Below are positions 1,467 through 25,914 of a stretch of DNA of 27,088 bases, piece by piece. The stretch comes from a virus. How positions within the stretch are numbered: position 1 is the first letter of the stretch; each line of letters begins with the position of its first letter. The stretch covers positions 1 through 27,088 of the IMG/VR virus record IMGVR_UViG_3300037558_000256, one strand, 5' to 3'. Position numbers and translations under genes: made by a program. The notes beneath the pieces were generated by a model. That model saw only the letters and a program-made list of their open reading frames with translations. It was not told the origin of the DNA and ran no database searches.

Positions 1467-3110
1467 TTAAGACTCTAAAGCCTCAATTCTAGTCTTAAGA
1501 TCGTTTATAGATGTAGTTTGTGCTTCTATTATTGTTTGTTGTTCTTGGATGCATTTCATTAGTGCATATTGCAAGTCAGTCTGGTAGATAGACAGGCGCA
1601 TCTTTGGTACATCTTTTGTTCCCCAATTACTTTCTACCACCAACTCTGGGGCAGTCGCTTGTACATCTTGAGCAACAACACCCAATGACGGACTGTCATC
1701 ATCTTCCATATTTTGGTCAATGTAGTTGAAGGTCTGCACAGGAATTCCGCAGATTATGTCTAGGTAAGATTTTGCAGGGTTAAAGTTGGTCTTCTCACGT
1801 CTATCAGACAAATTACTATTATTTGCTTGATAGTTTTGCACACCACCATTTGATAACCACCCACCACGATAAGCACTTGAATCAGCAGTAGTAAAAAATG
1901 TTGACGTTCCATCATTAGGATTTTGGTGAGAAAATTTGAATGCTGTTCCACTTGGAGCAGTAGTACTACTGTTAATTATTTCTAATATACCCCCATTTGC
2001 TGTTGACTTTGAAATTGTATGCGCTGAACCGCTAGTAGCCCCCACCAACAAGTTTCCAGAAGAATCAATACGCATTCTTTCTGTATCATTCTGTAAGAGA
2101 ACTACATTTGCATTTGAAGTAGTACCAAATACTGCATTGTTAGCCCATGCCGAATTTCCTACAGAGCCACCACCTGTACCTACTACAACAGTAGCAGCAG
2201 TGCTATTTGCATTTTCAATGTATAGTGTTGAATATAAACTTGCTCCATCTTCTTGAAATCTTGCTATTGGATAACCAGAAGTAGCCACAACATGTAATGG
2301 CTTTGTAGGACTCGTAGTTCCTATGCCAACTTTATCATTAAACAAAGCACTACCTTTATCAGACATATCAAGGGTAAGAGCATTTATAAATGAACCACCA
2401 TCATTACCTCTAAAAATAATGTCTTTATCTTGTGCAATGCTTATGATTTGCAAATCAGTAGAGCTGTTTTTTAATTGAGCAAACTCAGTACCATCATCTT
2501 TTAATTGTATAAGACCACCATCAGCATCTAGTACGATTTGACTTGCTGCATCTAAAGTCATAGAACCACTAGATAAAGCTAAAGTAGTGCCATCAAGTGT
2601 AAAGTTGTCTACTACTACACCTGCATTAGCTGTAAGTACACCTGCTACCGCTAACGTACTGTCCAACGTAGTAGCACCTGTCACATCAAACGTACCTGCT
2701 ATGTCTATGTTGGTGTCTATCTTGGCACTGGTGACTGCGTTGTCTGCGATCTTACCTGTGGATATGTTGCCATCGGTTATCTTGGCTGTGGTGACTTGTG
2801 CATCTGCAATATGTACTGTGTCTATAGAGCCATCAACGTACTGGTCTGAATCTACAGAGTTGGCTGCCATCTTACCTACTGTGATCTGTGCATCAGCTAT
2901 GTGGGCTGTGTCTATAGAACCATCTGTGTAGTGTTCTGAGTCTATAGCGTTATCGGCAATCTTAGCACCTGTGACAGCATCAGCGTTTATGGCTGCAGTT
3001 ACTACAGCGTTGTCTGCCAGTTCTGCAGCAACGATAGTTCCGTCTGCTAACTTGGCTGCGGTTATAGAGCCATCTTCTATCTGTTCACTTTGTACTGTCG
3101 TGTTACCCAT
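1467..3110 (-). CDS. Tail-fibre-like protein 3 with Peptidase_S74 chaperone
   Basis: This 547-residue fibre-like protein has three parts. Residues 1 to about 145 are short degenerate repeats of the type IADNAV / DGSIDTAHIADAQ, including a 30-residue period (90 bp) seen as near-repeats at 2821 and 2911. The middle part has beta-rich fibre modules, including LTLDMSDKGSALFNDKVGIG, VGIGTTSP and ERMRIDSSG. The C-terminus is a Peptidase_S74 intramolecular chaperone starting at NLSDRREKTNF (candidate cleavage Ser435), with GVVAQDVQATAPELV and a terminal leucine-rich coiled coil. In characterised S74 proteins the chaperone trimerises the fibre and then cuts itself off; cleavage here is inference. The start overlaps the stop of fibre 2 (TAATG), with GAGG upstream. 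It may bind host receptors. Confidence 0.85.
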   Translation of the reverse strand: MGNTTVQSEQIEDGSITAAKLADGTIVAAELADNAVVTAAINADAVTGAKIADNAIDSEHYTDGSIDTAHIADAQITVGKMAANSVDSDQYVDGSIDTVHIADAQVTTAKITDGNISTGKIADNAVTSAKIDTNIDIAGTFDVTGATTLDSTLAVAGVLTANAGVVVDNFTLDGTTLALSSGSMTLDAASQIVLDADGGLIQLKDDGTEFAQLKNSSTDLQIISIAQDKDIIFRGNDGGSFINALTLDMSDKGSALFNDKVGIGTTSPTKPLHVVATSGYPIARFQEDGASLYSTLYIENANSTAATVVVGTGGGSVGNSAWANNAVFGTTSNANVVLLQNDTERMRIDSSGNLLVGATSGSAHTISKSTANGGILEIINSSTTAPSGTAFKFSHQNPNDGTSTFFTTADSSAYRGGWLSNGGVQNYQANNSNLSDRREKTNFNPAKSYLDIICGIPVQTFNYIDQNMEDDDSPSLGVVAQDVQATAPELVVESNWGTKDVPKMRLSIYQTDLQYALMKCIQEQQTIIEAQTTSINDLKTRIEALES

Positions 3111-5963
3111 TACGCATCCTCTAGTGTTTTAATTCTTGCTTCTGCAGTTTCTAGTTTTGTTGTTAGTTCTTGGATTGCTTTAACTAATATAGGAACAAAT
3201 ATTGAGTATTTAACAGACTTTGTTGTTGTTTCTAACTCGTTGTTATCAGAATCTATATCAATGGTTTCTTCTACCATGCTAGGAAATATGGTTTCTAATT
3301 CTTGTGCTACAACACCTATTTGTTTTAAATCGCTGCCTATAAAATTAAAATTTCGTACTTTAACTTTTTTTAAATCAGATAGTTTGTCTGTGGCATCTAC
3401 TATGTTTTCTTTTAATTTAGAGTCTGAAATTTGCCCATAAGAGTTATTTGCATTTTGCAGATTACCATTGCTACGAATGACTGCTCTAGTTGTTGAGCTA
3501 TCGCTACAAGCTAAAAAGTAACGTGTTCCATCGTTAGGACTATTTGTCAGTGATACTGATATCCCGTATTCGGTAGCAGCAGCAGATGTTGACGTAATGT
3601 TTACAGCTGCATGATTTGCAAGATCATTTAAAACTTGTAATCTATCGCCTGCACTTGTAGTTCCTATGCCTACGTTTCCAGATGAGTTTACAACCATTCT
3701 AGTAGCATTTGCAGTGACATCATAAACAGTAAACGAATCTGATATTCCGCCATGTACACCTATTCTCCATGCACGTGCATCATTTTCAAAAGCCATTTGT
3801 ACCGCAGCATTTGATGAACCATCATATAAATCTAGTTTTGTTGCGGGAGTCGTAGTCCCTATGCCTATAGTTCCGTCTGATTTAATAAAGAGTCTTGTAG
3901 CAGATGCAGCAGCATCATAAATGTAAAAATTTTGTTGTGAGTTAGCAAGATGAAACTCACCATCTGTAACATCACTATCTTTTAAAGATAATAATGGTTG
4001 TGTGCCTGAAATCTGCACTACTGGTGAAGCACTACCCCAATCTGTAGGACTTGGACTCGTAGTTCCTATGCCTACGTTTCCACCATTAAAATAAGAATTT
4101 CCTGCGGTATGTATTAAAACATCTGCATTTCCAGAAGTATCACAAACTATCCAACGACCATTACCAGATGAATCTTGCTCCATAGAAGCCATCTTTGTTC
4201 CTGCCGAATCTTCTATTTTAAATATATTATCATTAGTAGCTGCTGCTCCTTTTACAACAAGTCTATAGTCAGGACTCGTAGTTCCTATGCCAAGCTGACC
4301 AGTATCGTCAAGAACCATTTTTACTTGTAAGGCTCCACCATTTGCTCTTGTTTTAAACTCTAATGTTCCTGCGTAGTCAGCATCAGTAGAATTAGCTTTA
4401 GCACCCTGTATTGCCGCCCATTCTGTATGGTCTCCGTTACTTCTATATTCAGCACCAAAAGTAATTTGTCCACCTACTCCTGCCGCATAACCAGTAGTGC
4501 TATCATCTAAAAATAGATTCCCTCTATAATCACTAGAAACAGCACTTGAAATATGTAAGGCATCAAGAGGACTCGTAGTTCCTATGCCTAAGTTTGCACC
4601 TAATATATTTATATCACCTGCACCATCAAACTCAATTCTTTCAGCATCATCTGCTATACCTATAGACGTATCATCACCCATGACTATATTGCCTGTCATA
4701 GTGCCACCTGCTAATGGTAGCTTGGCTGCTATAGAGTTAGTAACTGTTGTAGAGAAGTTAGCATCATCTCCCATTGCTGCTGCCAGTTCATTAAGCGTGT
4801 TTAAGGCATCAGGTGCGGAATCGGCTAAGTTGGCTACCGCAGTAGAAACAAATGCAGTAGTGGCGATTCTAGTAGTGTTATTGCCTGCGCTCTGCGTAGT
4901 AGTGGTAGGGTTGCCTGCTAAAGCTACATCGTCAGCTACTTTATCTCCTGTTACAGCGTTGTCTGCCACCTTTGCTGTAGTGACATTAGCATCTGTAATA
5001 TTAGCTGTTAGAACTGCGTTATCTGCCAGTACTCTTGATGTTATTTTAGTGTTTGCCATGTTATCCCTCTAGAGTTTCTATTCTAGCTTTTAAATCTTCT
5101 ATAATTGTTTGTTGTTCTTGGATTGCTTTTGTAAGAACTGGTATCAAAAACTTTTCTCTAACAGCTAAAGGATCATCAACTGTTACATCTCCTGCTTTTA
5201 TTGTTTGTCCTGCAGCAAAATCTTCTACTGCATCAGGAAAAACAGTTTGTACTTCTTGTGCAATAAAACCATATAAAGTTTTATCATTTTCTGACTTAGA
5301 AAAATCTTTTATCCAATTAAACTTTACAGGGTTTAAAGCTTTAACTATTGCCAAAGAATCCGATAATGTAGATATATTTTGTTTTACTCTACGATCTGAA
5401 GCGTTATAAATATTTGTACCACCAGGCGCTCCAACTGACCCATTTGCTCCTAAAGTCATAATCGTTGAACCAATTCCTTTACCACCAAGCAACATCTCGT
5501 TTGCGTTATGGTCATAAGCCACGAAACCTGCATATATTTCAGAGCCACTTGTTCCATCTGCAAAATGTATTCTGCCTAATGAGGCATTACCTGAATAAAT
5601 AGTTATCCCATCGTCACCTACACCATCACCTGCAACTAAACTACTTGCTCCTCCAAACATTGATGATGCTACTGTGTTTCCTATGGCTACACGACCAGAA
5701 GAATCAATACGCATTCTTTCTGAACCTGCTGTAGAAATATACATATAATCAGACGCATGAGCGTATCCAAAAATTCCTCTTGCTCTTGCGCTTGCATCAG
5801 AGAATAAAATCAATCCTTGATTAGCGTCTGGGCATCTAATATCTAAAGCTACTGAATCATTGTTTTCTATTGCTAATACATCACCACCATCAACAGACCA
5901 TGCTCTACCACTTGCAGCTTTATATATATGAGCTTTATTAGTAGGACTCGTAGTTCCTATGCC
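2308..5963 (-). repeat. Dispersed 20-bp repeat shared by the three fibre genes
   Basis: The plus-strand 20-mer GGACTCGTAGTTCCTATGCC occurs exactly five times: 2308-2327, 4053-4072, 4272-4291, 4569-4588 and 5944-5963. Near copies lie at 3651-3670 and 3846-3865. Each encodes GIGTTSP or a variant on the minus strand. Identity at synonymous positions goes beyond what the peptide requires. Confidence 0.85.
3110..5059 (-). CDS. Tail-fibre-like protein 2 with Peptidase_S74 chaperone
   Basis: This 649-residue fibre protein begins MANTKITSRVLADNAVLTAN, with the same ADNAV-type repeats as fibre 3. It then has TTTTQSAGNNTTRIATTAFV and a LNTLNELAAAMGDDANF module, common at the base of long phage fibres. 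The centre has five spaced IGTT-type turns, each followed by a beta segment. The C-terminal chaperone begins at QISDSKLKENI (Ser545), with VKVRNFNFIGSDLKQIGVVA and QELETIFPSMVEE, and ends in a coiled coil (IQELTTKLETAEARIKTLE). The ATG lies two bases after the stop of the giant fibre gene, with AGAGGG as a Shine-Dalgarno. It is likely a homotrimer in the virion. Receptor identity cannot be read from the sequence. Confidence 0.87.
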   Translation of the reverse strand: MANTKITSRVLADNAVLTANITDANVTTAKVADNAVTGDKVADDVALAGNPTTTTQSAGNNTTRIATTAFVSTAVANLADSAPDALNTLNELAAAMGDDANFSTTVTNSIAAKLPLAGGTMTGNIVMGDDTSIGIADDAERIEFDGAGDINILGANLGIGTTSPLDALHISSAVSSDYRGNLFLDDSTTGYAAGVGGQITFGAEYRSNGDHTEWAAIQGAKANSTDADYAGTLEFKTRANGGALQVKMVLDDTGQLGIGTTSPDYRLVVKGAAATNDNIFKIEDSAGTKMASMEQDSSGNGRWIVCDTSGNADVLIHTAGNSYFNGGNVGIGTTSPSPTDWGSASPVVQISGTQPLLSLKDSDVTDGEFHLANSQQNFYIYDAAASATRLFIKSDGTIGIGTTTPATKLDLYDGSSNAAVQMAFENDARAWRIGVHGGISDSFTVYDVTANATRMVVNSSGNVGIGTTSAGDRLQVLNDLANHAAVNITSTSAAATEYGISVSLTNSPNDGTRYFLACSDSSTTRAVIRSNGNLQNANNSYGQISDSKLKENIVDATDKLSDLKKVKVRNFNFIGSDLKQIGVVAQELETIFPSMVEETIDIDSDNNELETTTKSVKYSIFVPILVKAIQELTTKLETAEARIKTLEDA

Positions 5964-8900
5964 TAACTTATTATTTATATAAACAGCACCACTAACTGTT
6001 TCTAATTGTTCTGCTCCATCATAAAACAGTTTTATTGCACCACTTTGTGCAACTATTTGATTTTTGTTATTTGCTGCATTGTTTAAGACAAAAAGGTCTG
6101 TTCTTGGTCTTAAAGCAGTTGCATTAATAATTAAATCTCCTGTCCCTGCATCATCAATATAGCTATTAGAACCATCGTGATAAATCTGTAAATCATCACC
6201 TCCACCCAAAACTAGCTTGTTGTTATCTCCAAAATAAACATGGTCGTTAAAAGTTCCACCTGCATTGAATATTGCTCTACCTGCTGCTGACATATCAAGA
6301 GTAAGGGCTGTGACAGTAGAGCCATTATCATTTCCTTTGAACTGTATATCTACATCTTGTACAGCAGAATAAATTTGAAAATTTGTACTGTTATTTGTAA
6401 ATCTTCCTATTTCTGTTCCTGCATCTCTAAAAGAAATATCTCCACCATTAGCATCAAGGATGATATCTCCTTCAACATCTAATGTTAGGTCTCCACCATC
6501 AGATATTGTAGAGCCATTAATAGTTATATCGTCTACTGTAAGGGCAGTAAGCGTGCCTAGACTTGTAATATTTGTTTGTGCTGCTGTAGCAAGTGTTCCT
6601 GTTATGTTGCCTGATACATCTAAAGCACCATTAACATCTACTGTCGTGGCATTGATCTCTATCTCTGTATCGGCTACTAAGTCAAGAACTCCGTCTGCTG
6701 ATTGGTGTATGTAAGTGCCTGAATCGCCAAACTGTAATTGTCTTGAACTGTTTAAAAGAATACCTGTATCGGCAACGTGGGTAAGCGTTACATCTCCATC
6801 TTCCCCTAAGTGTACAACTGCTGCATCACTATCTAAGAAAAGATCGTCTTGTCCTGTTATGTCTCCTGTGACTTCTACGTTAGCTGCAAAGGTAGCGTTC
6901 TCACTACTGTCAAAGGTCATGACAACTGCATCTGCTGCCGATGTAATACCTACCGCAGTTTCCATCAAGTCTTTTACATCAGCTTTCTTGAGTGCGTTAT
7001 CAGTAGCATCAAAAATCATTACATGATCACCTGATACTGGTGTCACTTCTGTAAGGTTTGATATACCGCTTGCAGGGAAAGTGTTGATATTCGTTTGTGT
7101 GAATGTCATTACTTCAATAGCTGCACTATTGGCAGGTGCTGCATCAAAGGTTAGGGTAGTTCCTGATATAGCGTAGGTTGCCTTGTTCTGATAAACACCA
7201 TCTATATAAACCTGTGTATTGTTCTCGCTATCCGCAGATACCCCTAGAGTATAGGCTGTTGTGCTTCCGTTTCCTGTGTAGCTGTTTTGATGTACTCCTG
7301 TTCCTGCTACTGCTGCACTTACATGGTAGACAACTATCTTTCTTCCGTTAGGTGGTGCTGCATCTAAGGTAAGAGTAGTGCCATTAAGAACAAAATCATT
7401 AGGGTTCATGAAGACACCCTCTACAAAGACTAGGACGTTATCTTCTGAGTCAGGTGCTTTGCTTAAAGTAAATGCTGTGGTTGAACCATTGGCTGTATAA
7501 GTATTAACAGCAAAGGTAGATGTGCCACCTCCACCAATCTCGCCCCACGCATCTGTATATCCCTCAAACTTGCTAAGAGTTGTGTTGTATCTGAATAATC
7601 CTGCTGCCCCTGTCGGTCTTTGTCCAGTCGTACCTTTAGCAACTAAGATCGCATCTGTAACACTTCCTACGTCTAATCCTACGCTTGGAGAAGCCTGTTT
7701 GATACCTACCCTGTTATTGCTAGTGTCTACCTTAAATACGTTGGTATCTACCGCTAGATCGCCTGTAATGGCTAGTGAGGTTAGTGTACCTACGCTTGTT
7801 ACGTTTGCCTGTGCTGCAGTTGCCAAAGTTCCTGCTAACCCTGTTGCTGTTAGCAATCCAGTAGAAGGATTGTAGGTAAATCCTGTGTCAGTCTCTAAGC
7901 CTTGTGTTCCTGAAGCACCATCTACGAATACAGGGAATATGGTTTCGTCTGCGCTGTTGTTTGCAGTTATGGTGACAGTAGTTGCTAATGCTGCAGTACC
8001 AGTTGTGTCTTGATTTAATGTGCCAACTGTAAAGTCTAATGTGTTATCAGAATCGTCATAAGCTACAGTTATACCGCTTTCTGTGTTGGAACTTACCATT
8101 GCTCCAACTGTGTCAGATATAACTTCTGCTAATGTTACACCGCCTACTGTTATGGCATCTGCTTCTAGTGTTCCATCTATGTCTGCATCACCGCTTATGT
8201 CTAAGGTAGCACCATCAAGTTCACCGCTTATGGTGAGATTGCGTATGCCTGTGTAATCTTTATTGGAATCCAATATAACCGCTTTAGAGGCTATTGCAGT
8301 ACCGACTGCTGTACTACCTAAGTCAAGAGCGTTTAACTCTCCTACAACTGCTGTGATTCCGTCCAGTGCGTTTATTTCTGCTGCAGTAGCTGTGACTCCA
8401 TCAAGAATATTGAGTTCGGCTGCTGTAGATGTAATAGCAGTAGAGCCTAAAGTAATTTCAGAAGTGGTTAAAGCTGCTATAACTAGATTAGCTGCAGCGT
8501 AGCCAGTAGCACCTGTATTTACAGTTGTGCTAGGTACAGTCTGTGTGTCTACAAATAATCTAAATGTATTGTCGGTAGAAGCATCGTAAAAGATACCTGC
8601 GTATTTTGTTGTGGTTGACTCAACATATTTACCATAGAAACCAAAGTCAACTGAGTTGCCTGAGTTTGCATTGGAAAGACCTGTAAAGTTGTTGTCTGTT
8701 ACAACCGAACCTGTTTGTGTTGTTGTCCCTGATACAACAAGGTTTCCGCTTACTGTTAGATTGTTGCTTACTGTTACATCATTAGGTAGTCCAATAGTTA
8801 CTGTGTCCGTAGCACTTACTGCAACATCAACCTCATTGCTTGTACCTGCAACTGTGAGCGTATCACCGCCTGCTACTGTTTGTGTGTTAGAGCCATCAGA

Positions 8901-11900
8901 TAATGTAAAACTTGTGGATATGTTTGCTGTACTGGCTGATGTGATTCTACCTTTGGCATCTATAGCAAGAACTGGTATAGCTGTGGCACTTCCATAACTT
9001 GCTGCACTTACACCTGAGTCTGCTAAAACATAGTCTATTGTTCCATCTGAGTCTTGATAAGTTACAGTTATACCTGTTTCAGTATTTGAGGAAACCATAG
9101 CACCAACTGTATCTTGTACTACTTCGGTTAAATCTATATTAGCTGTTCCGTCAAAGCTTACTCCGTGAATAGTACGGGCATTGGCTAAAGCTGTAGCTGT
9201 AGCTGATAAAGCGACTGCTATGTTTGCAGTTCCATCAAAAGAAGTACCGCCAATAGTTCTTGCAGTTTCTAATGCGGTAGCTGTTGCTGAATTACCAGTT
9301 GTGTCCTGATTTAAAGTACCTACGACTACATCAATAGTATTGTCAGAATCTTGGTATGTAACTGTTATTCCTGTCTCTGTATTGGAGCTAAACATTGCTC
9401 CAACTGTATCGCTTATAACCTCAGATAAATCTATGTTCGCAGAACCATCAAAGCTGACACCATGTATCGTTCTTGCTGTTGCTAATGCTGTTGCAGTAGA
9501 TGAATTGCCTGTTACATCTCCTGTAATGTTTCCTACAAATGATGATGCTGCAAAGACTTTGTTTGAAGTCAGTCTACTGTTTCCGTTATCCCATGTAATG
9601 GTAGGTTTACTAGAAGAAGCACCAAACTCTATACCTGCGCCATTGGTATTAGCTAAACTTGTAGCACCTTTTGCTACTCTGATTGTTGCATCCTCTACAT
9701 CTAAAGTTGCAGTATTTAAGGTTACTGTATCTCCGTTGACTGTTAGATCACCTGTCACTATCAGATCATTGCCTATGGTCACGTCATCAGGCAGAGCAAA
9801 GGTTATGGCATTGTTGCTTACTGTAGTTGTGATCTCGTTAGACGTACCTGTGAATGTAAGTGTCTCGCCAGTATTAAATGTATCGTTAGAACCACTATCT
9901 GCTGCTAATGTAAAACTTGTGGCTATGTTGTTTGTTGAAACCGCAGTTACCAGACCTTTAGCGTTTACAGTTATGGCAGGTATAGCTGTAGCACTACCAA
10001 AAGAGCCTACATTGGAATTTACTGTGTCTAGTGTTGTGGTTATAGAAACATTGCCTAGATTAGTCATGGTGGCACTACCATCTATGTCACCTGCTATGGT
10101 TATAGTAGGATCGTTGACGTTGAAGTCTAAAGTACCATCTCCGTCCTCATAAGTGACCGCTATGCCTGATTCTGTGTTGCTTGACACCATAGCACCAACA
10201 ATGTCCTGTACTCTCTCTGTGGTGTGATATAGGTTAGAAGAACCTTCTGTCAGATCGTCTGTGTCAAAGCCTGTAAGGTTTCTGGTATCAAAGTTGACTC
10301 GGTTACCCATAAGGGCATGAGCAGAGCATTGATAAAATAAGACTGTAGGTGTGGCTGCTGTAGCCTTAATCTCTGTATAAGCCCCTGCGCTACCTGCTGT
10401 GCCATTGGTTGTTACCCCTGTTGTATAAGCTGTAGTCTTGTCTGACTCATAATAGAATCTAAGAGGGTGTCCACCATTAGAACTATCTGCTTGGTCAAAC
10501 CTATAAGTAGTGTCAGGTGTAAGCGTTAGATAAGGAGACTCTACTCCATCCAGTACATAAGCACTTGAACTGCCACCATCGTACGGATGCTCACTTGTCT
10601 TACTGGCTACTGTTACTGTAACTGTCTGTGTAGTGGATTCGCTTGGTGCTGTACTTAATGTTCCTGAAAACTCAGGGTCACTTATTGTAGGATTAGTTAT
10701 TGTTTTGTTGGTAAGTGTTTCTGTAACAGCAGAAGTGTCTACCACCAAATCAATCGTGCCATCACCATCTTCATAAGTTACAGTGATGTTAGTTTCAGTA
10801 TTGCTACCGAACATAGCACCTACTGTGTCCTGTATTACTTCACTAAGGTCTATGTTGGCTGTTCCGTCAAAAGACACACCATGTATGGTTCTTGAGGTCT
10901 CAAGGGCAGTTGCGGTAGCTGCATTTCCTGAAGTATCTTGGTTAAGAGTACCGATAACTAAATCTATAGTTCCGTCCCCATCCTCATAAGTTACAGTGAT
11001 ATTAGTCTCTGTGTTAGAGCTGAACATTGCACCGACTGTATCTTGTACAACCTCTGTCAGATCAATATCTGAAGTACCATCAAAACTTACACCATGAATA
11101 GTACGAGCTGTTGCCAAGGCGGTAGCTGTACCTGCCAAACCTGTTGTATCTTGATTAAGTGTTCCTATCACTAGATCAATAGTTCCATCGCTATCTTGAT
11201 AGGTGACTGTAATGTTTGTTTCCGTATTGGAGCTGAACATAGCACCAACTAGGTCTTGCACGAACTCAGTATTCAGTCCTACTGTTACTGCTGCTGATTC
11301 AGAACCGCTATTGGCTACATCTATGCCACTGTTTGCTGCAGCTAATGTTGCTACATAGTTACCAGTAGTATCTGTGCCTAAAGCTACAGAATTGGCTGCT
11401 ATGGTGGCTGTAAGAGTGCCATCGGCTAAGTTGGAGAGGGTCACAGAACCGCTTAAGTCTCCTGCTAATGTGATAACTGGTGATTTATTAATCGTAGTCC
11501 CAGACGAAATATCACCTCCGTTTATATCAACAGTATTGAGGACAGGAGCTGTTAGTGTTTTGTTGGTCAGTGTCTGTGACCCAGAGAGTGTTGTGACAGT
11601 GCTATCTATTGCAAAGGTAACTGTATTACCGCTACCTGTTGTATCTATGCCTGTACCACCAGTAAAGGTCATAGTTTCGCTGTCTAAATCTATGTTTAAA
11701 GCACCGCCTGAGTCTCCTTGAAAGTCAAAGTCTTGTGCTGTTACTTGCGCATCTACATACGCTTTGATTGATTGTTGTGTGGCTAGTTTGACATTACTGT
11801 TACTGCCTAAGTTATCTTCGTCTAATATTCCTGTAACTGTTGCACCACCTGCTGTAAAAAGTAACCCTTTTAACTTAGTGCTTAAAGATGTTGCGTTGCT

Positions 11901-12122
11901 TGATGTGGTAGCAAGCCATCTAGCATTGGCATGGTCATATATAATCGTAGAGCCTGCATCACTAGAACCTACTGTTTCCTCTTCTGTTGTTCTTCCTAGT
12001 AGTGTTGCTGCACCTGCTAGACCTTGTGTTCCTACAGTTATGACACTGATTGCATCTCCATCAGTTACAACAACTTTGTTTATGGTATTTGTACTGGAGG
12101 TTGTGACCTTTGATATAGCCAT
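5061..12122 (-). CDS. Giant fibre protein (2353 aa) with repeats, cupredoxin-like domain and S74 chaperone
   Basis: This gene takes a quarter of the window. Residues 1 to about 260 hold fibre-base modules (ATQQSIKAYVDAQ, TLTNKTLTAPVLN). Seven copies of a VGAMxSSNTExxIxVxY unit follow between about residues 285 and 1370; the first three are spaced exactly 71 residues apart. Residues about 505-610 form a cupredoxin-like domain (His552, Cys599, His602, Met605). A LNILDGVTATAAEINALDG repeat lies near residue 1260. Two TxNGSTTAFTL / GTTLTLDAAP beta domains lie near 1537-1684. After a GIGTTSP turn, the S74 chaperone starts at NASDRRVKQNI (Ser2242) and ends in a coiled coil. The start overlaps the preceding stop (TAATG). 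It is probably a long trimeric virion fibre. Its place next to the capsid genes leaves open whether it sits on the tail or the head. Confidence 0.87.
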   Translation of the reverse strand: MAISKVTTSSTNTINKVVVTDGDAISVITVGTQGLAGAATLLGRTTEEETVGSSDAGSTIIYDHANARWLATTSSNATSLSTKLKGLLFTAGGATVTGILDEDNLGSNSNVKLATQQSIKAYVDAQVTAQDFDFQGDSGGALNIDLDSETMTFTGGTGIDTTGSGNTVTFAIDSTVTTLSGSQTLTNKTLTAPVLNTVDINGGDISSGTTINKSPVITLAGDLSGSVTLSNLADGTLTATIAANSVALGTDTTGNYVATLAAANSGIDVANSGSESAAVTVGLNTEFVQDLVGAMFSSNTETNITVTYQDSDGTIDLVIGTLNQDTTGLAGTATALATARTIHGVSFDGTSDIDLTEVVQDTVGAMFSSNTETNITVTYEDGDGTIDLVIGTLNQDTSGNAATATALETSRTIHGVSFDGTANIDLSEVIQDTVGAMFGSNTETNITVTYEDGDGTIDLVVDTSAVTETLTNKTITNPTISDPEFSGTLSTAPSESTTQTVTVTVASKTSEHPYDGGSSSAYVLDGVESPYLTLTPDTTYRFDQADSSNGGHPLRFYYESDKTTAYTTGVTTNGTAGSAGAYTEIKATAATPTVLFYQCSAHALMGNRVNFDTRNLTGFDTDDLTEGSSNLYHTTERVQDIVGAMVSSNTESGIAVTYEDGDGTLDFNVNDPTITIAGDIDGSATMTNLGNVSITTTLDTVNSNVGSFGSATAIPAITVNAKGLVTAVSTNNIATSFTLAADSGSNDTFNTGETLTFTGTSNEITTTVSNNAITFALPDDVTIGNDLIVTGDLTVNGDTVTLNTATLDVEDATIRVAKGATSLANTNGAGIEFGASSSKPTITWDNGNSRLTSNKVFAASSFVGNITGDVTGNSSTATALATARTIHGVSFDGSANIDLSEVISDTVGAMFSSNTETGITVTYQDSDNTIDVVVGTLNQDTTGNSATATALETARTIGGTSFDGTANIAVALSATATALANARTIHGVSFDGTANIDLTEVVQDTVGAMVSSNTETGITVTYQDSDGTIDYVLADSGVSAASYGSATAIPVLAIDAKGRITSASTANISTSFTLSDGSNTQTVAGGDTLTVAGTSNEVDVAVSATDTVTIGLPNDVTVSNNLTVSGNLVVSGTTTQTGSVVTDNNFTGLSNANSGNSVDFGFYGKYVESTTTKYAGIFYDASTDNTFRLFVDTQTVPSTTVNTGATGYAAANLVIAALTTSEITLGSTAITSTAAELNILDGVTATAAEINALDGITAVVGELNALDLGSTAVGTAIASKAVILDSNKDYTGIRNLTISGELDGATLDISGDADIDGTLEADAITVGGVTLAEVISDTVGAMVSSNTESGITVAYDDSDNTLDFTVGTLNQDTTGTAALATTVTITANNSADETIFPVFVDGASGTQGLETDTGFTYNPSTGLLTATGLAGTLATAAQANVTSVGTLTSLAITGDLAVDTNVFKVDTSNNRVGIKQASPSVGLDVGSVTDAILVAKGTTGQRPTGAAGLFRYNTTLSKFEGYTDAWGEIGGGGTSTFAVNTYTANGSTTAFTLSKAPDSEDNVLVFVEGVFMNPNDFVLNGTTLTLDAAPPNGRKIVVYHVSAAVAGTGVHQNSYTGNGSTTAYTLGVSADSENNTQVYIDGVYQNKATYAISGTTLTFDAAPANSAAIEVMTFTQTNINTFPASGISNLTEVTPVSGDHVMIFDATDNALKKADVKDLMETAVGITSAADAVVMTFDSSENATFAANVEVTGDITGQDDLFLDSDAAVVHLGEDGDVTLTHVADTGILLNSSRQLQFGDSGTYIHQSADGVLDLVADTEIEINATTVDVNGALDVSGNITGTLATAAQTNITSLGTLTALTVDDITINGSTISDGGDLTLDVEGDIILDANGGDISFRDAGTEIGRFTNNSTNFQIYSAVQDVDIQFKGNDNGSTVTALTLDMSAAGRAIFNAGGTFNDHVYFGDNNKLVLGGGDDLQIYHDGSNSYIDDAGTGDLIINATALRPRTDLFVLNNAANNKNQIVAQSGAIKLFYDGAEQLETVSGAVYINNKLGIGTTSPTNKAHIYKAASGRAWSVDGGDVLAIENNDSVALDIRCPDANQGLILFSDASARARGIFGYAHASDYMYISTAGSERMRIDSSGRVAIGNTVASSMFGGASSLVAGDGVGDDGITIYSGNASLGRIHFADGTSGSEIYAGFVAYDHNANEMLLGGKGIGSTIMTLGANGSVGAPGGTNIYNASDRRVKQNISTLSDSLAIVKALNPVKFNWIKDFSKSENDKTLYGFIAQEVQTVFPDAVEDFAAGQTIKAGDVTVDDPLAVREKFLIPVLTKAIQEQQTIIEDLKARIETLEG
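6540..11300 (-). repeat. Internal repeat region of the giant fibre gene
   Basis: Seven related copies of a unit encoding VGAMxSSNTExxIxVxYxDxD lie within the giant fibre gene, near 11230, 11015, 10800, 10190, 9400, 9095 and 8095. Five copies of ARTIHGVSFDG (one degenerate, ARTIGGTSFDG) alternate with them. The first three are in perfect 213-bp register: equivalent bases lie at 11224, 11011 and 10798. Between the fifth and sixth copies an extra half-unit of TATALANARTIHGVSFDG has been inserted. Downstream parts carry other fibre modules rather than this repeat. Confidence 0.8.
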
Positions 12123-15728: not shown

Positions 15729-16550
15729 TTAATCAGACACAACATCTTGTTCATCAACATAAATTATCACACATCTACAATTAATATTATTTCTTGCTCC
15801 ACCTTTAGGATCGCCAGTATGTGCCATCGGCAAACCTCCTACTTCAAAATCTTCGTCCATCTCCCTTATCTGTCCATTTGCTATTGTATGTGCTGATCGT
15901 GTTCTACCATCGTTAGTAGCACCCCACCTTTTTAGCATCTTAGAACCATATTCTGTAGCAACTTGTTTATAGTATTTATGATGTGCAAATCCTGCTGCAT
16001 TGTGTGTTTCTGTTCTGGCGATAGTGGCTGCCCTAGCTCGTGTTATGGGTCTTACTTTTTTTTCAATATTTCTAGCTATCTCAGTCAAAGTCAAACCTTC
16101 TGATCTACCATCAATAATAATTTTTTCTACTCTTTTAGATATATTAGAAGATATGTTTGCAAGGACTAATTCTCTGGTTCTGAAGTATTCTTCAATGATT
16201 GGTTCTAAATCTACATTCCTACCGAACACCAAAGCATCTTCTTTTAGCTCGTCTAGAGTATTAGCTTTGTTATTTTCATCATAGATAGTTCTAAAGATTC
16301 TTCTGTAATGACTTTGCATGACTGGATAAAGTTCAGCCTGTAAGTCTCTAGTTGCTATACCTAATTCATACTCTCCAAATTCTCTGTATAAATAAGCTCT
16401 GGTATTAACGAAACGTCCAAATAAAGAAGTGAGCCTTTTAAAAAAAGTTTTTTCTAAGTTGTTTCGGATTCTAAGTTGTTTTCTTATTTCCTTTTGCGCA
16501 CTAATTCTGCCCCTACGAAATCTACTGAATTGCTTTTTGTTTGGGATCAT
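15729..16550 (-). CDS. Phage head morphogenesis protein (Mu F / SPP1 gp7-like)
   Basis: This 273-residue minor head protein has a basic N-terminus, then the family C-terminal domain: RAATIARTETHNAAGFAHHK, WGATNDGRTRSAHTIANGQ, FEVGGLPMAHTGDPKGGARN and NINCRCVIIYV. These match the Phage_Mu_F signature (ARTET, W.at.DgRTR..H...nGq, gdp.GgA...iNCRC). In SPP1 the homologue is an ejection or assembly protein bound to the portal. The start ATG overlaps the portal stop (ATGA), consistent with translational coupling and with the usual portal-Mu F neighbourhood. Its exact role here is inferred from family members. Confidence 0.9.
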   Translation of the reverse strand: MIPNKKQFSRFRRGRISAQKEIRKQLRIRNNLEKTFFKRLTSLFGRFVNTRAYLYREFGEYELGIATRDLQAELYPVMQSHYRRIFRTIYDENNKANTLDELKEDALVFGRNVDLEPIIEEYFRTRELVLANISSNISKRVEKIIIDGRSEGLTLTEIARNIEKKVRPITRARAATIARTETHNAAGFAHHKYYKQVATEYGSKMLKRWGATNDGRTRSAHTIANGQIREMDEDFEVGGLPMAHTGDPKGGARNNINCRCVIIYVDEQDVVSD

Positions 16551-23089: not shown

Positions 23090-23368
23090 CTAAAATAAGT
23101 CTTGTTGTCCTGTTTGGACATTCAGTTTATATTCATAACCTTTTCCTGCAAGTCTAGATCGTTTGTCTACGACCTCTCCATACTCTTTAAGGTTATACTT
23201 TTTTCTTTCCTCATAGTTTCTAAGTTTCCTTAGACCTGCTGATATTGTTGCTTCTCCATAGAACTTGTCAAAGGAGTTTGATATAAGGTCTTGCAATGCC
23301 CAGAATGTATACCACCCTCCGTCTTTCATAATTTCATAGAGGCAGTCTGTAAGTGTCATCTTCTTCAT
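23090..23368 (-). CDS. Winged-helix-like hypothetical protein
   Basis: This 92-residue protein has AGGAG seven bases before the ATG and overlaps the preceding stop by four bases (ATGA). Residues 1 to about 60 (MTLTDCLYEIMKDGGWYTFW, then ALQDLISNSFDKFYGEATIS, AGLRKLRNYEERKKYNLKEY) follow a helix-turn-helix-wing pattern seen in small DNA-binding or replication accessory proteins. A basic wing (VDKRSRLAGKGYEYKL) follows. No precise family. It lies inside the recombination operon. Confidence 0.6.
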   Translation of the reverse strand: MKKMTLTDCLYEIMKDGGWYTFWALQDLISNSFDKFYGEATISAGLRKLRNYEERKKYNLKEYGEVVDKRSRLAGKGYEYKLNVQTGQQDLF

Positions 23369-24051
23369 GCTGACTCTCCTAGTTCTATAAGTGCCTTGTA
23401 GCCTTCCTTAACTTGCTTGTCACTTGCAGGCACACTGTCATGGGCTTGGTCTATTTGCTCTTTATTCATCAGATACAAACCTTTAAATGACTTCTCTTCT
23501 TGCACACACTTTTGATACTCCACTCGCATCTGTACCAAGAAGTCACTTGCAGTCTTGCAGTTACTCTTGATGTTGCCATTGAGTTCTTTGATGCTGAATC
23601 CTGTTTCCGTTTCAGATTCAACTTCTACAACTTCTTGTGTAACTTGTGCCTCTGCTGCATCCTTAGCTGCATCTGGCAAATCTTCTCCTCTAAATATATA
23701 GTTTGCTAAACCAAACATAGCCAAACACTTAACCATACATCTCATTCTTGTGTCTGAGATTTGTCTGGTAGTAGGATTAGTAAGAGAATTATTACGATTG
23801 TCCATGCAAGGCAACCACATATATCTTTCTAAGTTTCCTATTCTTACTATGCAATGAGACATTACAGTACCATTGGCTTCGTAAGTTTCTGGCATAAATT
23901 CATAAGTTGCAAAACTATATTGCTCCTGCAGAATTTGCCAAGCATCAGTCCAAGACAGATAAGTAAAGTTACCTTTCTTATCGTGATGCTCACTAAGGTC
24001 TAAGGCATTTAAAGTTGCCCAAACTTCTTTGTATGTCAATTCAACATTCAT
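23365..24051 (-). CDS. Single-strand annealing protein, Sak3/DUF1071-like
   Basis: This 228-residue protein starts at MNVELTYKEVWATLNALDLS; the ATG at 24051 has GGAG seven bases upstream and overlaps the exonuclease stop (ATGA). Conserved features are KKGNFTYLSWTDAWQILQEQ, CIVRIGNLERYMWLPCMD, the asparagine-rich NRNNSLTNPTTRQISDTRMR and CMVKCLAMFGLANYIFRGED. The 'YLSWTDAW' and 'QISDTRMRCMVKCLAMFGL' segments are those of DUF1071 single-strand annealing proteins (Sak3). These anneal complementary single strands during phage recombination. The gene is directly downstream of its exonuclease partner, in a Red-like arrangement. The C-terminal third is charged and probably flexible. Confidence 0.85.
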   Translation of the reverse strand: MNVELTYKEVWATLNALDLSEHHDKKGNFTYLSWTDAWQILQEQYSFATYEFMPETYEANGTVMSHCIVRIGNLERYMWLPCMDNRNNSLTNPTTRQISDTRMRCMVKCLAMFGLANYIFRGEDLPDAAKDAAEAQVTQEVVEVESETETGFSIKELNGNIKSNCKTASDFLVQMRVEYQKCVQEEKSFKGLYLMNKEQIDQAHDSVPASDKQVKEGYKALIELGESA

Positions 24052-24836
24052 TTTATACTCCATATTTTACGTTCAATGATTTGTTCTATCTCGTAATCTG
24101 ACCAAGTCCAATCGGAAAAGTCAGGGTACATCACTGAAGTTATTTCATTTAAGTCGCCCAAAGACAAAAGGTTCTGCATTGCTATAACAGCTCCTTTTAC
24201 TTGTGACATATATATATCCACATCGTTGACTTCCATAGTAATCACTTCCTGTCTGGACTGATTGACTACAACATAGTCTACAAGTGGAACGTATCCGTCT
24301 AAGGCTGTGCTGTAAATGGACAGTTGCCTATTGACTGAATCTGGTATCTCAGAGGGTTTCTTGGCAGTAGTCTTTAGGTCTCTGACTATGCCTAACTCTG
24401 GGTAAGTGAAATCGCAGTAGCCGATAATTTTTACTGGCGACCACTCTGGTTGATATTCTATTTTCTGCTGATGATTAGCTTTGCCTAAGTTCTTGTAGTG
24501 AGGTATGGCAAGCTCAAGATATTTTGCTAAGTTCTGTTTCTCTTTGAGTTCTTTTGCTTCGTCTACCTCAAATGCTTTTTCTTTCTTGAGTTGCTTTATG
24601 GTCGTATCAAACTCTAGGACTGCCCTTTGTATTGACTCTGCAACTGGTAATGCATCTTTTTCTTGTCTACCTATTTCGTGATCTACCACTGTGCCTCTAA
24701 GCATTGCAGGATTTGTGTGTGATCTTATCTTATGCAGATAATTCAGAACCCACTTAGGAGTGTTGGATATAAACAAGCTGATGCTTGAGTTGGATAAATG
24801 TTCTATTCCAAAAGTGTCAAATGGATTGTTATTCAT
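24048..24836 (-). CDS. PD-(D/E)XK exonuclease (RecE/YqaJ-like role)
   Basis: This 262-residue protein has AAGGAG five bases before the ATG. Nuclease motifs are visible: LRGTVVDHEIGR with His53, IIGYCDFTYPELGIVRDLKT with Asp142, Asp153 and Lys155 as the D...D-x-K core, and NRQLSIYSTALDG with Gln171 and Tyr175, the QxxxY motif of RecB-like nucleases. It probably resects double-stranded ends to expose ssDNA for the Sak3-like annealing protein encoded next to it. There is no helicase or ATPase motif, so it fits the exonuclease VIII / PDDEXK_1 role rather than AddB. The start region is a shared divergent control region with the Cro-like gene. Confidence 0.85.
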   Translation of the reverse strand: MNNNPFDTFGIEHLSNSSISLFISNTPKWVLNYLHKIRSHTNPAMLRGTVVDHEIGRQEKDALPVAESIQRAVLEFDTTIKQLKKEKAFEVDEAKELKEKQNLAKYLELAIPHYKNLGKANHQQKIEYQPEWSPVKIIGYCDFTYPELGIVRDLKTTAKKPSEIPDSVNRQLSIYSTALDGYVPLVDYVVVNQSRQEVITMEVNDVDIYMSQVKGAVIAMQNLLSLGDLNEITSVMYPDFSDWTWSDYEIEQIIERKIWSIK

Positions 24837-24855
24837 GTTTTCTCCTTTTTATTAT

Positions 24856-24884
24856 TTTCATTTGATTCAATATTGGAGTATAAT
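24856..24884 (+). promoter_or_regulatory. Candidate promoter of the Cro-like gene, face to face with the exonuclease promoter
   Basis: Plus strand TTTCAT (24856-24861), 17 bases, then TATAAT (24879-24884), a perfect -10 box, giving a start about 39 bases before the ATG. A minus-strand TATACT (24877-24882) overlaps it, with TATACA 17 bases upstream (24900-24905). The two promoters would share DNA and probably compete. Confidence 0.5.
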
Positions 24885-24903
24885 TCCTTTTCGGATTTAT
24901 GTA

Positions 24904-24917
24904 TATAACAAATTGGA
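24904..24917 (-). promoter_or_regulatory. Early intergenic element, copy between exonuclease and Cro-like genes
   Basis: Plus-strand TATAACAAATTGGA. Its ATAACAAATTG core (24905-24915) recurs exactly 50 bp away inside the Cro-like gene (24955-24965), making a candidate pair of operator sites. Confidence 0.45.
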
Positions 24918-24929
24918 ATTTTTACAACG

Positions 24930-25133
24930 ATGAAATTGAACACATATCTTAACGATAACAAATTGACACAAAATGATTTTATAGAAGTCTGCAAAGACAA
25001 GACTGGACATACCTTTACACAAGGTTGCATCAGCAAGTGGGTCTTAGAAAAGCGCAGACCGAGAGCTGACGAATGTAAAGTCATATATAATTCTACTGAA
25101 GGCAAAGTCACACCTAACGACTTCTACCTTTAA
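24930..25133 (+). CDS. Cro-like repressor (YdaS/Cro family helix-turn-helix)
   Basis: This 67-residue protein is the only convincing plus-strand gene. KLTQNDFIEVCKDKTGHTFT then QGCISKWVLEKRRPRADECK and VIYNSTEGKVTPNDFYL match Cro/YdaS regulators: a helix-turn-helix with a conserved 'S.W....R.P', then the 'TxGxVTPNDFY' end. It probably binds operator DNA near its own start. It sits antisense within the early block: divergent from the exonuclease and convergent with the replication initiator (20-bp overlap of the two stops). Transcription of the early strand through this gene would produce antisense RNA to it. Only a weak ribosome site is seen (GGA about 13 bases upstream). No CI-like partner is in the window. 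Confidence 0.85.
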   Translation: MKLNTYLNDNKLTQNDFIEVCKDKTGHTFTQGCISKWVLEKRRPRADECKVIYNSTEGKVTPNDFYL

Positions 25134-25914
25134 TATTATGTTTGGAGGCAATCTCCGCTAACTTCTGACTAGCCTTTGGATTTACTTTAGGTGAGTTCTT
25201 AGGCTTGTTTTCTGTAGACCATGAGCTTGATACTCTGACCTCATTTTGCTTGCTTAGAATCTCTTTATCTTGCATCCACTTGGGTTTATCTTTTGTGGTC
25301 TTAGTAACCTTCTTGATGTCCTCTAACTTTATATCCTCATAGTCAAGGTATCTGCGTTGATTTAAAAAGGTGGTGCAATGACAGATGAAGGTCTGCTGAA
25401 TTTCTTCAGCTAGGCAATGAGCTACAAACTTTTCTAACTGATGATATAACTTTTCCTTATCGTAAGTTTTGACAATCTGTTCATATTTGATTCTTGCAGA
25501 AAACTTGCTGATCTTTCTGGGATAGATTTTCCAAAATCTTTCAAACTCTATATTAATAATATCTTTAGTATCATCTTTAGTATTGGAGGGTTGTGGAACG
25601 GATAGCCTCACCGCCCTTAGACCCCTGTCCGTTTTTCCACCCATAGCCTTAGAAAAGTGGTATCTATTACTTGTATGACCACCCAGATCATTCTTTCTAT
25701 GCTCTATACTTATCAAACCTAATTGCTCAAATTCTTTGATAGCCTTTTGCACTCCTTTGGTATCTTTTAATCCAACCATCTCTGCGATGTGCCTATAAGA
25801 TGGATAACAAGTGCCTCGTTCATCGCAATAGTTTCCTAAGATCACCAATATAAATTTTTTGGTTGGGGTTAAGCCTTCTACTTTTAAGGCTGCGTTCAAA
25901 CACTCTATAGACAT
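25114..25914 (-). CDS. Replication initiator, lambda O-like, with N-terminal HTH
   Basis: This 266-residue protein has AGGAGG four bases before the ATG. The N-terminal part (LNAALKVEGLTPTKKFILVI, then YPSYRHIAEMVGLKDTKGVQ and KAIKEFEQLGLISIEHRKND) is a winged helix of the HTH_36 type found in phage replication proteins. The C-terminal part has FERFWKIYPRKISKFSARIK and HCTTFLNQRRYLDYE, the typical 'F..FW..YP.K' to 'TTFLNQ.RW' region of such initiators. It would bind the origin and recruit host replication proteins. The C-terminal tail is basic and Ser/Lys-rich. A promoter lies directly upstream. The origin itself is not identified; iterons were not found by eye. Confidence 0.8.
   Translation of the reverse strand: MSIECLNAALKVEGLTPTKKFILVILGNYCDERGTCYPSYRHIAEMVGLKDTKGVQKAIKEFEQLGLISIEHRKNDLGGHTSNRYHFSKAMGGKTDRGLRAVRLSVPQPSNTKDDTKDIINIEFERFWKIYPRKISKFSARIKYEQIVKTYDKEKLYHQLEKFVAHCLAEEIQQTFICHCTTFLNQRRYLDYEDIKLEDIKKVTKTTKDKPKWMQDKEILSKQNEVRVSSSWSTENKPKNSPKVNPKASQKLAEIASKHNIKGRSR

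Follow-up and report, generated by a model that had tools for sequence, protein, structure and literature searches.

Most work on Cro treats it as half of a lysis/lysogeny switch. Lambda Cro is a small helix-turn-helix (HTH) repressor that adjoins a divergent early region, and the operators of O_L and O_R overlap the promoters. The virus DNA analysed here, a stretch of 27,088 nucleotides to which we refer as the window, carries a Cro-like gene (cro) flanked on both sides by minus-strand genes: an exonuclease and then a Sak-type annealing protein on the left, and a replication initiator on the right (Table 1). What would such a gene regulate, through which operators, and does it belong to a switch? 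We propose that the locus is probably an autorepressing Cro unit without CI, in which one operator region and a two-way promoter would govern both cro and the recombination operon.

Table 1. Features of the cro/exonuclease region, in window coordinates.
Feature	Position	Strand	Basis or remark
Sak-type single-strand annealing protein	23365..24063	-	PF06378, E 2e-32
PD-(D/E)XK exonuclease, heading the divergent operon that runs leftwards	24048..24836	-	PF12705, E 1.2e-6
-35-like TTTTCA of the predicted cro promoter, 18 bp from the -10	24855..24860	+	window, L090, L091, L094, L096, L098
-10 TATACT of the predicted exonuclease promoter, four base pairs common to the cro -10	24877..24882	-	sequence, clade comparison
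-10 TATAAT of the predicted cro promoter	24879..24884	+	conserved in 12/12 clade loci
O1, candidate operator, dyad ATTCC-TTTTC-GGATT	24883..24897	.	covers cro -10/start region and exonuclease promoter spacer
-35-like TATACA of the predicted exonuclease promoter, 17 bp upstream of the -10	24900..24905	-	sequence
O2, candidate operator, dyad ATAAC-AAATT-GGAAT	24905..24919	.	-35 side of exonuclease promoter; contains upstream ATAACAAATTG
ATAACAAATTG, copy 1	24905..24915	+	supplies O2's left half plus spacer
Cro-like HTH repressor gene, 67 aa (MKLNTYLND...VTPNDFYL)	24930..25133	+	phrog_35 match, codon-position pattern, AF2 model
ATAACAAATTG, copy 2	24955..24965	+	cro codons D-N-K-L; unconserved; not taken as operator
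Replication initiator, convergent with cro, 20-bp overlap	25114..25914	-	phrog_270, E 7e-33

A predicted Cro-like repressor divergent from an exonuclease

Three observations indicate that the open frame is a real gene: differences from relatives concentrate at third codon positions (first, second and third positions carry 8, 4 and 36 of those against L090), its product is matched by phrog_35, a phage family annotated as transcriptional repressor (E 2.5e-5), and AlphaFold (AF2) confidently predicts an HTH domain (pLDDT 94.9). The model has five helices, at residues 3-9, 14-25, 31-38, 46-55 and 62-65, and displays the fold of Cro/C1-type (XRE) HTH repressors of the lambda/P22/434 type; its nearest solved folds are TP901-1 CI (Z 9.1), YdaS (7.9) and P22 c2 (7.5), at ~10-15% identity and with weak Foldseek E-values (best 0.059). 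The predicted fold, closest to phage CI, c2 and YdaS domains, thus agrees with an earlier reading of the locus, made from the sequence alone, which had called the protein Cro-like. Sequence searches returned little for the window protein: Pfam gave no HTH match beyond YdaS_toxin at 0.13, a PDB sequence search gave chance matches only, and NCBIfam gave no family, including carph-isopro (NF046037), which a Caenibius plasmid protein matches at 1.6e-11. The relative L008 matched HTH_3 below the cut-off (E 9.5e-4).

The pairing of cro with the exonuclease is widespread. Searching with an alignment of the exonuclease yielded 148 relatives, and in 75 of the best 80 of these loci a divergent Cro-like gene adjoins the exonuclease; three of the five misses (L093, L153, L155) are contig edges, and two (L164, L165) lack a Cro-like gene. 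Searches of the genome_contigs collection and of the phage records found no exonuclease relatives. In plasmids four distant ones were found, and that of Caenibius has a divergent HTH/carph-isopro pair located away from the exonuclease. On its other side, cro overlaps the end of the initiator gene by 20 bp, an overlap that the sequence-only reading had pointed out. A minus-strand open frame of ~92-95 amino acids runs antisense to cro both in the window (24833-25111) and in the relative G016 (L250:5715-5999); its sequence is alike in the two, and it is probably a shadow of the cro codons.

Two predicted promoters that share a -10 box

The sequence-only reading had proposed that a -10 box for cro overlaps one for the exonuclease on the opposite strand. 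Both boxes are present, and their overlap is kept in 12/12 loci of the window's clade. The shared element is near-palindromic: its plus strand reads TATAAT, and across the clade its minus strand reads either TATACT or TATAAT. The -35 elements vary: TTTTCA is absent at the same spacing from the clade member L101, and at 16-17 bp from the minus-strand -10 clade relatives carry TTGCTA or TTGCAA. The window's TATACA at this place looks more remote from their TTGCWA, which counts against the proposed promoter. A consensus promoter scan alone did not rise above chance (4 found, 2.4 expected).

Applying the usual 7-bp step places the predicted starts at ~24891 (+) and ~24870 (-), 21 bp apart. Bidirectional promoters are defined in PMC10268837 by 7-25 bp between starts, a range that includes the predicted distance; the commonest published distances (PMC10268837, PMC12825309) are 18, 10 and 23 bp. 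Overlapping, near-symmetric -10 elements are common to those published promoters and to the cro/exonuclease locus, where conserved opposite-strand -10s occur as A[GT]TATAAT together with O1 in 12/12 clade loci. In the published cases, one of the paired transcripts can encode a repressor, as with acrR. For five tested E. coli bidirectional promoters, PMC12825309 reports basal transcription too low for polymerase competition, and exclusion between the two directions may therefore be slight.

A conserved dyad as candidate operator

All 12 clade loci read A[GT]TATAAT[TC]CC-N5-GGA[AT]T, which contains the dyad O1, and a second dyad ending in GGAAT, O2, lies 21 bp after O1 in every one of them (22 bp in the window). 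These ATTCC-N5-GGAAT-type dyads appear to be better operator candidates than the 11-bp repeat ATAACAAATTG, which the sequence-only reading had favoured. At a score of at least 9/10, O1 is the sole dyad site in the window and likewise in G016; sites of this quality beyond cro loci comprise one intergenic site in G003 and two within ORFs in each of G002 and G021. The G003 site, ATTCCCATTTGGATT at 16541 (L007 ~1869), lies within the exonuclease operon close to an HNH gene and could be a second operator of that phage. A pattern scan for TATAATTCC-N4-TGGATTTTT returned 15 stretches. L051, a contig that breaks off within cro, was the one addition to the clade; the others belonged to clade members already known or had no Cro-like frame. 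A scan with the L008 protein found no new close member.

Regular expressions divided the Cro-like proteins by recognition helix into class Q, to which the window protein belongs ([PST]Q[GA]xx[SA]K[WY]), and class H (HA[LIV]xKW). Dyads were scored against ATTCC-N5-GGAAT within 100 bp upstream of cro, with a threshold of 8/10, in representatives below 90% protein identity; L114, whose start codon is unsettled, was left out of the class Q counts in the first-set test, in the ranking of dyads and in the comparison of helices with half-sites. Among loci from the best 80 of 148, the dyad reached 8/10 in 17/18 class Q representatives as compared to 0/21 of class H, and 9/10 in 14/18 and 0/21, respectively, in sets that include the early relatives and L008 (ATTCC-N5-GGATT) in which the dyad was first noticed. 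Shuffled class Q upstream sequences reached 8/10 in a mean of 1.15 and a maximum of 4 in 300 shuffles. When 15,220 dyads (761 half-sites at 20 spacings) were tried without prior choice, ATTCC-N5-GGAAT ranked first in class Q, and no single dyad stood out in class H. Class H loci such as L010 and L011 have a different conserved block, of the GACAAAATGGGTTGATATGCAAG type, between exonuclease and cro, with -35 boxes apparently back to back.

An independent set came from a scan with class Q proteins, in which 19 of the best 80 of 133 loci lay on contigs already used, leaving 61 new loci. The dyad reached 8/10 in 43 of these and 9/10 in 20; counted by representatives, the figures were 19/25 and 15/25. 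At other spacings, 9/10 matches among the 25 new representatives were absent for spacers of 0-4 and 7-10, four for N6 and one for N11. Counts at N6 were also raised at 8/10 (10/18 in the first set, 13/25 in the new one), perhaps owing to A/T neighbours. The dyad was missing at 8/10 from six of the 25 new representatives and from L108, whose helix, TQGAINKW, counts as class Q, and some of the misses carry a different right half. The right half in turn varies with the helix: GGGTT occurs with 8/14 SQGG proteins as compared to 1/25 PQGT proteins (Fisher 3.6e-4, not corrected for kinship).

In the exonuclease tree one branch separates class Q from class H, so the contrast between them amounts to one evolutionary event. 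Persistence of the dyad inside class Q, down to ~42% protein identity to the window, is the stronger evidence. The single split is also what gives some room to the view that another protein binds the dyad, or that it is a mere promoter element (discriminator or start region), the Cro-like protein acting elsewhere; O1 lies over the -10/start region, and the demands of a promoter are by themselves enough to preserve bases there. We nevertheless consider this view unlikely, given the inverted symmetry, the fixed N5 and the second copy 21 bp off, outside the cro core promoter. A half-site that varies with a helix residue points instead to a dimeric protein of the Cro-like family, and this dyad is missing upstream of cro in class H, where cro is likewise divergent from an exonuclease of this family. 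Autorepression, as the sequence-only reading had also suggested, would then be the best reading of a conserved dyad on the cro promoter.

Gene orientation downstream of cro

Downstream of cro, the next gene points towards it in each of the 12 clade loci and also in L117-L124 and L008; it is co-directional in 33/33 class H loci and in at least 18/43 class Q loci, a lower bound because L104-L106 and L166 were counted as opposed though a co-directional gene starts within ~6 bp. With a co-directional downstream gene in many loci, the opposed layout is a trait of some lineages, and the exonuclease-cro pair is what stays constant. A scan found no terminator-like site between initiator and exonuclease, so readthrough across cro is possible, as is, judged from the layout, the antisense transcription that the sequence-only reading had envisaged.

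It might then be transcription itself, through initiator readthrough over cro and polymerase exclusion at the shared -10, that exerts the main control, with a small role for the protein. This account draws on the opposed gene of the loci just named and on the interval free of terminator-like sites; we regard it as quite unlikely, because the layout it depends on gives way to a co-directional one in all class H and many class Q loci, and the conserved parts are the divergent pair and the dyads, not the opposition.

No integrase, resolvase or S24 domain found in 20 related contigs

No phage integrase (PF00589), resolvase (PF00239) or S24 (PF00717) was found in 20/20 related contigs, G016 among them; an earlier set of 15 contigs included one with both integrase and S24, namely the contig of L015, which encodes a distant Cro-like protein (36%). 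HTH_3 matched a small ORF in 8/20 contigs and was not found in four contigs of the window's clade (G016, G017, G002 and G003), and 20 non-structural ORFs of G016 matched no repressor or integrase family. G016 (L250-L252) has 47,471 bp and a 99-bp terminal repeat, and nearly all of its genes lie on one strand; the exceptions are cro and a group of genes at 3301-4751, one of which encodes a 2OG-Fe(II) oxygenase. Such family searches miss repressors without HTH_3 or S24 domains, and the window is a 27-kb fragment. The absence of integrase, resolvase and S24 suits a lytic life without proving it.

The sequence-only reading had spoken of a switch. Of the components of a lambda-type lysis/lysogeny switch, the searches revealed no CI partner (S24 in the 20 contigs, HTH_3 in the four clade contigs), an absence that is not proof as the contigs include fragments, no integration functions (PF00589 and PF00239, 0/20) and no separate O_L and O_R, only O1 reaching 9/10 in the window and G016. 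With neither CI nor integrase found, a bistable form is unlikely, and the lack of a CI partner argues for negative feedback rather than a two-state switch. A lambda-like bistable switch could still operate if a CI-type repressor of unknown family, encoded elsewhere in the genome, used O1 and O2. Such a repressor might sit among the small ORFs of G016, most of which have no family match, and in the Mesorhizobium phage vB_MseS-P1, where an integrase is present, a related Cro gene does face a LexA-type repressor. Here, by contrast, cro faces an exonuclease for which the genome_contigs search found no relative, and the negative searches in the 20 contigs and, for HTH_3, in the four clade contigs also count against this possibility, which we hold to be very unlikely.

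The 11-bp repeat

ATAACAAATTG occurs exactly twice in the window, at the two places that the sequence-only reading had named and exactly 50 bp apart. An exact 11-mer pair is expected within this 297-bp stretch in ~2% of dinucleotide shuffles, and outside its repetitive tail genes the window carries 14 close 11-mer pairs at nine places, so the pair is weak on its own. The repeat was found in one of 77 Cro-like loci (the window, L008 and the 75 exonuclease loci from the best 80 of 148), the window itself; neither copy is present in seven close relatives with 84-87% identical proteins, and the copy inside the gene, which encodes D-N-K-L, differs in every relative shown. We therefore rejected the 50-bp repeat as an operator: it is private to the window, and its inner copy is changing coding sequence. 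That the two copies, exact and about five helical turns apart, act as an operator pair across 50 bp is thus extremely improbable, the upstream one being accounted for by O2.

Close 11-mer repeat pairs are concentrated elsewhere in the window: 44 of 58 fall within 1467-12122, the span of three long, repetitive genes on the minus strand. Their products, of 547, 649 and 2353 aa, resemble one another at the C-terminus and look like tail or appendage proteins.

Discussion

From the gene, its predicted fold, the conserved promoter overlap and the conserved dyads that go with the recognition-helix type, we infer DNA binding, dimerisation and repression by the Cro-like protein, as well as start sites and timing. 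In the autorepressing unit that we propose, host RNA polymerase would take the shared -10 in either orientation; rightward transcription would read cro, and leftward transcription the exonuclease/Sak recombination operon. Once enough Cro had built up, a dimer would settle on O1 (ATTCC-N5-GGATT) and cover the cro -10/start together with the spacer between the exonuclease -35 and -10; O2, beside the exonuclease -35, would be occupied after O1, turning both promoters off. Such negative feedback would limit early transcription.

Whether the locus is in addition a collapsed immunity region seems to us evenly balanced. CI-O_L-O_R would in that case have been reduced to Cro, an operator pair and a promoter with a shared -10, and helices and half-sites would have changed together, giving lineage-specific specificities. 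The reduction would then extend across a wide range of uncultivated tailed phages, with the promoter driving the repressor and the recombination operon in opposite directions.

A Cro that apparently stands alone, in phages without a detected route to lysogeny, isolates the role of Cro in lytic growth, the shut-off of early genes. The natural pairs of helix and half-site (PQGT with GGAAT, SQGG often with GGGTT) constitute a ready test set for specificity. They could also account for which phages silence each other in a co-infection.

We did not find the cro/exonuclease arrangement described in the open-licence literature searched, as far as its accessible text extends. SA97, considered as a possible precedent, was set aside, as it is reported (PMC4632378) to have neither a CI-like nor a Cro-like repressor. 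A similar layout occurs in the cultured SAR11 (Pelagibacter) phage HTVC034P (L044), where a small gene annotated as hypothetical (4842-5114) stands directly back to back with one for a putative nuclease (gp14/gp15), and an annealing protein gene comes next; at the protein level the similarity is very weak (E 0.9 over 27 aa). The related 71-aa Cro-like protein of Mesorhizobium phage vB_MseS-P1, annotated 'repressor protein C' (33% identity, E 0.03), belongs to a temperate arrangement and differs in this respect from ours.

The N-terminal domain of TP901-1 CI, a temperate-phage repressor that is larger as a whole, is the best fold match to the window protein (PDB 3zhi and 3zhm, Z 9.1 and 8.7 over 63-66 residues), at just 11% identity. 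In gene order and promoter layout lambda offers a parallel, and by analogy the cro/exonuclease unit may work like its Cro arm: in both, exonuclease and annealing genes lie on the opposite arm and operators lie over promoters. Unlike lambda, the window's clade has no CI or integrase that we could find, a single operator region in place of O_L and O_R, two promoters that share a -10 box and a replication gene that is reversed.
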